A DNA stretch of 64,000 nt from an uncultured Saprospiraceae bacterium. Its GTDB lineage: Bacteria; Bacteroidota; Bacteroidia; Chitinophagales; Saprospiraceae. The stretch is taken from the NCBI GenBank assembly GCA_938007965.1, contig CALLMH010000003.1:1-64000 (forward strand), given 5' to 3'. The notes under the pieces are model-generated. The model did not search any database and was not told the origin of the DNA. It saw only the letters and a list, made by a program, of their open reading frames with translations. Of the stretch, positions 11,669 through 13,378 are shown in pieces. Position 1 is the first letter of the stretch; each line of letters begins with the position of its first letter. The position numbers and the translations under genes are program-made.

Positions 11669-12574
11669 TTATCTGTTATAAAATCTATTCATAACGATAC
11701 TATGCGGAAGCGTAATTAATGAAATCATAATAATAGATAACAACACATAGGATATCTCTATCAATCCGTTTTCAATAAGTAATAAAATCACTCCTCCACC
11801 TATGAAACTAATCATAGTGAATGGCAGGAGTAGTTTTATAAAATCTATGATTTCGAAGTTACTATGAATCCTTTTTGATTTTAAAAAATTAAACTCATCT
11901 AAAAGGACCTTAGCGGAATGTAAGACCACAAAATATAACGTAAAACCTACCAATAAAGGAAGTGTCGCAAAAGCAATATGTATTAAAGCCAAAATGTATA
12001 CTTCTTTGAGCATATTTTCGATCTTAAATATTTTCTTCTGAATTAAGTAAATGAAAAATATCACTAAGACTGTAGATGAAAGTATTAGTCCGTAAAAATG
12101 AGGTGTATAACTAAAGATATCAAGTAATGGATTTAAGTCAGCATAATCCGTAAATAAAACAACTAGCTCTTGATAATTATAGAGTATCATGCCTTCTAAA
12201 ATATTAATACCCCAAATTAAATATAGGAGAGCACTTGTTATGTTAGTATGATCGAAATAGTCTGAAAATTGTGACTCCCCAAAATGATAGGCAGATACTA
12301 ATAAGAATATGACAAAGGAAAAAGCAGGAAAAAAAAACCAAAGAATCAAATATAAAGCCATTGACGCTAAATAACCAGCGTAAAATTTTACTGGGTGCAT
12401 CTTCGAATCAGATAGGAAAAGTACATTGTCTATTGCCCCGTGAGGTATTCCAAATAAGGCTATCAAAGCACCGCAACTCATAAGCTGTACATCCATAGGC
12501 ATGATATCACAAAAAGATAGAATAGATATCAATACATACAATATAGATAAAAATATAAAGCTCAGTTTCGTCAT
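11669..12574 (-). CDS. blh: Beta-carotene 15,15'-dioxygenase (Brp/Blh family)
   Basis: Cleaves beta-carotene to two retinal molecules, the chromophore of the rhodopsin encoded just upstream. The 301-residue membrane protein has many hydrophobic helices and the family's histidine landmarks: FGIPHGAIDN (His45), SAYHFGESQFSDY (His97), VVLHSAK and, near the end, LPHSIVMNRF. An upstream in-frame ATG exists at 12619, but it lies inside a terminator-like hairpin; the ATG at 12574 begins a normal hydrophobic N-terminus. Lycopene and carotene synthesis genes are not in the window. Confidence 0.92.
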   Translation of the reverse strand: MTKLSFIFLSILYVLISILSFCDIMPMDVQLMSCGALIALFGIPHGAIDNVLFLSDSKMHPVKFYAGYLASMALYLILWFFFPAFSFVIFLLVSAYHFGESQFSDYFDHTNITSALLYLIWGINILEGMILYNYQELVVLFTDYADLNPLLDIFSYTPHFYGLILSSTVLVIFFIYLIQKKIFKIENMLKEVYILALIHIAFATLPLLVGFTLYFVVLHSAKVLLDEFNFLKSKRIHSNFEIIDFIKLLLPFTMISFIGGGVILLLIENGLIEISYVLLSIIMISLITLPHSIVMNRFYNR

Positions 12575-12614
12575 AAAAGAAAAATAAAATGGGGCCCAAT
12601 ATAAACCGGACCCC
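12575..12614 (-). terminator. Terminator or attenuator between rhodopsin and blh
   Basis: On the minus strand, a GC-rich stem (12614-12608 with 12597-12591, one mismatch) has a loop of about ten bases and is followed by a U-rich run across 12590-12575. It starts 14 bases after the rhodopsin stop and ends at the preferred blh start. It could end most transcripts after the rhodopsin gene and let a fraction continue into blh. Confidence 0.6.
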
Positions 12615-12628
12615 ATCACAAAATATAA

Positions 12629-13378
12629 TTATGGTGCAATTCTTTCGCTCTGTGTTGCTTGTATCGCTACAGAGTAAACTACTATCCCGAATCCTATCTT
12701 ATTGATCGCATCGGCGATGTTGTAGAATAAGTCTACCCCACTAGAGTTCCATCCGAAAGCTGTATTTAACCAACCGCCAGGCATACACATATACCCAATT
12801 GGATAGATTGCCCATCCTACGAGGATAAACCAGGCTAAAATTCTAACTCCTTTCTTCACAAGTGGATCTCCGCTATCTTTTGCTAATTGAGCTACCTCAC
12901 CAAACCATGCTGCATATAGTACATACAAATATCCTAATGTAGAAATGACTCCCCATAATACAGAGTGGCTTGCGCTACCTCCTGGAGGATTGTATGCTTC
13001 ACCTATATAACCTGCGACTAACATCCATACAGATGCTATAATTAGCTTCCACATGAGTCCGATTTTGGCTCCAGCATTCTTAGTCAACAAATAAAATTCG
13101 ACACACATCAACGGTACTGTCAATGTCCAATCGATGTACCTCAAGGCAGTAGGATTCTCTCCTGTAGCCATGTAGTAATCTCTCATATAAAAATAATGAA
13201 CAGCCGCTATACCTGTAATAAGTCCAGAAATAAGTAACGATAGTTTCCATTTATCTGATACCCGTCCACGTTCGAAAAAGAAAAATACAGAGGCGGCAAA
13301 CATGGCCATTCCTCCAGTAAAAAATGTAAACGCTACCGGATCATCTTTTGGAATTGCAATAACTTCTAATGGAAGCAT
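12629..13378 (-). CDS. Proteorhodopsin, DTE-type light-driven proton pump
   Basis: A 249-residue, seven-helix microbial rhodopsin. Helix C (RYIDWTLTVPLMCVEF) shows Asp83 (proton acceptor), Thr87 and Glu94 (donor), the DTE set of proton pumps and not the NDQ set of sodium pumps. Met91 is at the spectral tuning site (GPR position 105), predicting green absorption. Lys227 in NIADAINKIGF binds retinal; Asp223, Arg80 and His61 match the conserved counterion set. Gly143 aligns with the residue whose small size opens a carotenoid-binding fenestration in xanthorhodopsin. No cleaved signal is obvious. It is followed by blh in the same direction. Confidence 0.96.
   Translation of the reverse strand: MLPLEVIAIPKDDPVAFTFFTGGMAMFAASVFFFFERGRVSDKWKLSLLISGLITGIAAVHYFYMRDYYMATGENPTALRYIDWTLTVPLMCVEFYLLTKNAGAKIGLMWKLIIASVWMLVAGYIGEAYNPPGGSASHSVLWGVISTLGYLYVLYAAWFGEVAQLAKDSGDPLVKKGVRILAWFILVGWAIYPIGYMCMPGGWLNTAFGWNSSGVDLFYNIADAINKIGFGIVVYSVAIQATQSERIAP

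Follow-up and report, generated by a model that had tools for sequence, protein, structure and literature searches.

A Saprospiraceae proteorhodopsin with an open glycine window that may admit a carotenoid ring beside retinal

In a 64,000-nucleotide stretch of DNA from an uncultured Saprospiraceae bacterium (CALLMH010000003.1, positions 1 to 64,000, hereafter the window), a rhodopsin gene lies next to blh. An earlier note, made from the letters of the window alone, had pointed to a glycine in helix E of this rhodopsin and suggested that a hydroxylated carotenoid such as zeaxanthin might serve as its antenna. The locus thus raises the question of whether the protein has room for a carotenoid beside its retinal, how far the rest of the site resembles that of the known carotenoid-binding rhodopsins, and which pigment the host might offer. 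The features of the rhodopsin gene that bear on this question are the following.

12629..13378, minus strand: DTE proteorhodopsin of 249 amino acids; the open reading frame spans these coordinates exactly; PF01036; best solved match 9jou/9jov
13130..13132, minus strand: codon of Asp83, the D of DTE, with Thr87 and Glu94 after it (joint alignment)
13106..13108, minus strand: codon of Met91, the tuning residue at position 105 of green proteorhodopsin (GPR) (joint alignment)
12950..12952, minus strand: codon of Gly143, equivalent of Gly156 in xanthorhodopsin (XR), Gly153 in Kin4B8 and Phe152 in GPR (phmmer and alignments)
12938..12940, minus strand: codon of Thr147, equivalent of Kin4B8 Thr157 (joint alignment)
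12791..12793, minus strand: codon of Tyr196, equivalent of Kin4B8 Tyr204 (joint alignment)
12776..12781, minus strand: codons of Pro200-Gly201, at the places of Kin4B8 Ser208-Tyr209 and of NM-R1 Thr-Pro, without a polar anchor (ungapped against 9jov between the common Tyr and Trp)

The rhodopsin reading frame, for which the earlier note had named no strand, lies on the minus strand, and its product matched Bac_rhodopsin (PF01036) with 151.2 bits in a Pfam search, against a cut-off of 24.6. It is the sole rhodopsin found in the 4.19-Mb, 113-contig host genome when this protein is the query (E <= 0.001), and a scan of viral_contigs found no relative. Twelve of the 80 homologues that were kept (the best 80 of 162) are titled Saprospiraceae, including four of the best five, and the rest bear mostly other Bacteroidota names. 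The joint alignment placed D83, T87 and E94 at the DTE positions and Met91 opposite Leu105 of GPR, in agreement with the DTE type and the Met at the 105-equivalent read from the sequence before. Met at this position marks a green-type rhodopsin by the established rule, and green absorption is to be expected here. N226-K227 is invariant across 32 aligned sequences, and by analogy with GPR K227 is probably the retinal lysine. The DTE motif and the relatives suggest that this member of the Bacteroidota proteorhodopsin group is an outward light-driven proton pump. One relative (L034, from genome G018) is a distant rhodopsin with N-T-Q, the chloride-pump pattern, at the D-T-E places, and it also has Gly at the Gly143 position.

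The phmmer search set Gly143 opposite the Phe of the FIIGCL segment in GPR chain 2l6x, which we take to be residue 152. In the joint alignment, Gly stands at this place in Kin4B8 (7ytb), XR (3ddl), GR (6nwd), the thermophilic rhodopsin 5azd and 9jov; GPR has Phe there and Med12 BPR (4jq6) has Trp. A Gloeobacter rhodopsin query supplied the sequences of the GR, Kin4B8 and XR chains. The two methods therefore agree with the equivalence to GPR Phe152 and XR Gly156 claimed earlier, to which Kin4B8 Gly153 can be added, and both give Gly rather than a bulky residue at the fenestration. A single MAFFT run had brought a Pro of GPR opposite Gly143, GPR having slipped by a gap; phmmer and the larger alignment both gave Phe. 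The WG-x-x-ST segment around Gly143 is common to Kin4B8, XR and GR, and since the predicted helix E spans residues 136-158, Gly143 would lie inside it. Thr147 stands at the place of Kin4B8 Thr157, which is named as a fenestration residue in the available part of PMC13093654.

Gly occupies the Gly143 position in 80/80 kept homologues (best 80 of 162) and in 15/15 relatives, which makes it no chance residue, and Thr occupies the Thr147 position in 75 of the same 80. These counts exclude the fragments L035 to L037 and include L034, and the two sets may partly overlap, L020 and L069 being almost identical in the tree. In PMC13043013 (2026), as far as its available text goes, the glycine is present in all Bacteroidota proteorhodopsins of subtree I. 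As glycine is the rule among the Bacteroidota proteorhodopsins compared, the glycine window here is not novel, and rhodopsins with such a carotenoid-sized opening are already known.

The best solved match was 9jov/9jou by phmmer and 9jou by Foldseek (E 9.2e-17; query TM 0.85, target TM 0.92), at ~52-54% identity. The entry title of 9jou is zeaxanthin-bound NM-R1, presumably from Nonlabens marinus, and 9jov and 9jou are identical over the stretch compared. The structure prediction proposed in the earlier note as a check gave a seven-helix model (pLDDT 87.0) whose best structural matches are proteorhodopsins and whose best solved Foldseek match is this zeaxanthin-bound protein; residues 191-220, at the end of helix F, are among its least certain parts (blocks of pLDDT 68-71). 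NM-R1 ranked third in VIA-align, with Z 29.4 and an rmsd of 2.1 across 230 residues, level with other chains of the proteorhodopsin type; the chains tied at Z 29 to 30 include two flotillin-associated rhodopsins and GPR. A 50-tip tree was built from 27 of the best-80 homologues, taken by every third locus number, together with the 15 relatives, this rhodopsin and seven PDB chains. This rhodopsin and 9jov fall in a 43-tip group with a support of 0.985, and XR, GR, Kin4B8 and 5azd fall outside it.

NM-R1 shares with our protein the fold, the helix-E Gly, DTE, Met at the 105-equivalent and the helix-F Tyr, but it has Gly at the Thr147 position and YMAGTPGW where YMCMPGGW is found here, so that Thr-Pro is replaced by Pro-Gly. 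KR1 of Dokdonia eikasta and EINA29G6 are, like this protein, fenestrated proteorhodopsins, and both are reported to bind lutein and zeaxanthin (PMC12308411, available part). Kin4B8 and XR have the same helix-E segment with Gly153 and Gly156, although the tree places them outside the proteorhodopsin group and they are only ~29-30% identical. GPR belongs with our protein to the DTE proton pump group, but its Phe152 shuts the opening and it has Leu105 in place of Met91.

The likeness is less complete in helix F. In Kin4B8, polar helix-F residues hold the 3-hydroxy ring of the carotenoid, and the S208A change brings zeaxanthin binding down to 2% (available part of PMC12308411). At Kin4B8 positions 204, 205, 208 and 209, the same source gives Y-A-S-Y for Kin4B8, Y-M-T-D for KR1, Y-I-T-E for EINA29G6, Y-M-M-A for XR and Y-L-M-L for GR; the series here is Y196, M197, P200 and G201. 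Tyr is thus present at position 204, but as GPR and Med12 BPR have the same Tyr, it does not set antenna rhodopsins apart. KR1 shares Tyr-Met at the first two positions. At 208 and 209 no polar residue was found; Pro/Gly stands in place of the Ser/Tyr of Kin4B8, the Thr/Asp of KR1, the Thr/Glu of EINA29G6 and the Met/Ala of XR. The segments of NM-R1 and of this protein align ungapped between the common Tyr and Trp, and Pro therefore stands for Thr, whereas MAFFT placed gaps there for Kin4B8 and GR, so that their register depends on a count starting at the conserved Tyr. Because 9jov has Thr-Pro, just the first residue of the pair is shared by all the hydroxycarotenoid binders in this comparison. 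The one unusual point of this rhodopsin is that, besides the glycine it does have, a further residue that probably holds the carotenoid is missing.

The helix-F motif was then counted in 81 sequences, a biased set made up of this rhodopsin and the best 80 of 162 homologues, and read YMCMPGG in 75, YMCMDGG in three, YMCMEGG in two and YMFMPGG in one. One search peptide was YMCMPGGW itself and the best 80 of 162 were kept, which inflates the share of Pro200. The 33 YMCM tips of the 50-tip tree, 31 with Pro and two with Glu, form one clade (support 0.998); the three Asp variants are absent from this tree. At the Pro200 place, located from the Tyr, the nine other DTE relatives have Thr (four), Glu (three), Asp (one) or Pro (one, L030).

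We favor, with a probability of about 0.6, a model where the helix-E wall, open at Gly143, lets a host carotenoid place its 3-hydroxy beta-ring next to the retinal ring of this Bacteroidota-type proton pump. Retinal would be supplied by the neighboring Blh, and the bound carotenoid, myxol or a similar monocyclic compound and possibly zeaxanthin, would pass violet-blue light energy on, speed the photocycle, or both. The match of Gly143, Thr147 and Tyr196 to the carotenoid site of Kin4B8 and XR in the alignment argues for this model, and Pro200/Gly201 in place of the polar pair near the carotenoid ring argues against simple zeaxanthin binding. The same two residues, standing instead of Ser/Thr plus a partner, could also mean that the opening is an inherited trait of the Bacteroidota group and that a clade lacking the helix-F anchor binds no carotenoid tightly, with a lipid or nothing filling the site and the pump using retinal alone. 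The S208A result in Kin4B8 (PMC12308411, available part) points in this direction, as do Pro in 75/80 and Asp or Glu in 5/80 homologues at this place (best 80 of 162, a biased set). We find this reading rather unlikely, as within those best 80 of 162 homologues Gly143 is kept in 80/80 and Thr147 in 75/80, and the ketocarotenoid-binding XR and GR have Met/Ala and Met/Leu at these positions (same source), so that the polar pair is not needed by every antenna.

A narrower form of the favored model, a sub-case and not exclusive of it, is that the chief effect of a bound hydroxylated carotenoid is a faster photocycle or a more stable protein, with little energy transfer. The title of Fujiwara et al. 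(2025) on marine Bacteroidota rhodopsins is in line with such a role, as is the zeaxanthin bound to NM-R1, the closest solved relative, but the title of a 2024 preprint names light-harvesting too, and a carotenoid acting mainly in this way seems to us improbable.

The carotenoid-making host that the earlier note had thought plausible is supported by the gene content of the genome. The genes crtB and crtI lie together on contig C110 (crtI: NF058655, 753.3 bits against a cut-off of 640) and crtD and cruF on C40 (crtD: NF042421, 709.7 bits against 500; cruF: PF04240 match), with crtY on C73 and a crtA-like gene on C75 (229 bits, under the cut-off of 300). The crtA-like, crtY, crtB and cruF proteins score under their NCBIfam cut-offs. 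A direct protein search found a CrtZ-like gene on C4, whose product is 47% identical to a Pantoea CrtZ query, contains four His boxes and has no Pfam or NCBIfam match. An absence of CrtZ had been considered when PF04116 gave only three generic hydroxylase genes (four matches), none of them CrtZ-like, and was set aside with this result. PF18916 (CrtYcd-type cyclase) matched nothing in the host. Of the two genes proposed for a genome check, crtZ was therefore found in a CrtZ-like form and crtW gave no match at E up to 1. These genes are spread over five contigs of a draft genome, whereas they form one cluster in Nonlabens spongiae, in which a gene set of this kind makes myxol (PMC11855829, available part).

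As crtD, cruF and the crtA-like gene point to a monocyclic carotenoid, either myxol or one like it, the main product is probably not zeaxanthin; by analogy with the N. spongiae pathway, such a monocyclic compound would be the likeliest main carotenoid of the host and zeaxanthin a possible one. The zeaxanthin antenna proposed earlier therefore stands in part: the helix-E glycine, the CrtZ-like gene and the zeaxanthin-bound closest solved relative speak for a hydroxylated carotenoid, but the probable main product and the lack of the polar helix-F pair speak against zeaxanthin itself. In a set of 60 genomes including the host, CrtZ was found in 46 and rhodopsin in 17, and their co-occurrence was not above expectation (CrtZ in 14/17 rhodopsin genomes and 32/43 others, p 0.74). 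The CrtW query gave matches in 10 of the 60, two near full length (39% with one internal stop, and 37%) and eight weak and partial. A xanthorhodopsin-like 4-ketocarotenoid antenna would fit the absence of the polar pair, as in XR and GR, but is highly improbable, as a CrtW query found no CrtW-type ketolase in the host (E <= 1) and the three PF00487 matches there are DesB-like, DesA-like (both under cut-off) and one without NCBIfam match.

Two features lie downstream of the rhodopsin gene.

11669..12619, minus strand: blh, beta-carotene 15,15'-dioxygenase (TIGR03753, 140 bits against a cut-off of 95.25; PF15461, 161.4 bits)
12588..12617, minus strand: terminator-like hairpin, T-rich at its tail, that follows the rhodopsin stop and precedes the likely blh ATG (stem of 13 bp, -20.3 kcal/mol, z -4.63, 0/200 shuffles as good)

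Both family matches confirm the blh gene on which the earlier note had relied. Its longest reading frame opens at GTG 12619, which would place the hairpin within it, but the ATG at 12574 gives 301 amino acids, near the 290-326 of relatives, and is the more likely start. Blh follows rhodopsin in 54/81 cases. The distance is no more than 250 bases in 49 of them (the window and 48 loci), and a strict terminator pattern occurs in 25 of those 49 gaps, against 0 times in 20 shuffles of each. A looser scan of the 90 bases after rhodopsin gave the pattern in 48/79. Among 45 stretches after rhodopsin genes, a count that leaves out the window, includes rhodopsins without blh after them and uses longest reading frames as gene calls, 21 were terminator-like and 39 of the 42 long enough to fold had z < -2, against two of 56 and 8/53 in the other co-directional gaps that these loci contain. 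Being related, the loci are not independent; the hairpin sequences vary between them. Rfam at gathering scores gave two tRNAs and nothing else within the window. L075, L076, L089 and L104 instead have their best Blh match (26-31% identity) on the opposite strand and upstream, its start being ~2.9-3.1 kb before the rhodopsin gene end.

A partial terminator, or an mRNA 3' stabilizer, keeping opsin far above Blh would fit such a hairpin, which may set the opsin:Blh ratio. In Dokdonia PRO95 blh is weakly expressed, although the gene order there may differ, and the available part of that report (PMC3587595) does not mention a hairpin of this kind, which is weak evidence that the observation is new.

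It is possible, though quite doubtful, that the YMCM[P/D/E]GG clade of Bacteroidota proteorhodopsins represents a separate type of carotenoid site, one that has the open glycine but lacks the Ser/Thr anchor of helix F and is suited to holding a monocyclic carotenoid, for example myxol, in a manner unlike that of Kin4B8 or NM-R1. We know of no experimentally tested member of this clade, whose records bear the names of Saprospiraceae, Cryomorphaceae, Cyclobacteriaceae, Flavobacteriales and others and include the cultured Cryomorpha ignava and Flexithrix dorotheae. It is a natural test of the need for the helix-F polar pair in hydroxycarotenoid binding. Carotenoid binding in the clade would mean that the published rule has to be widened, and its absence that glycine alone over-predicts antennas in environmental surveys.
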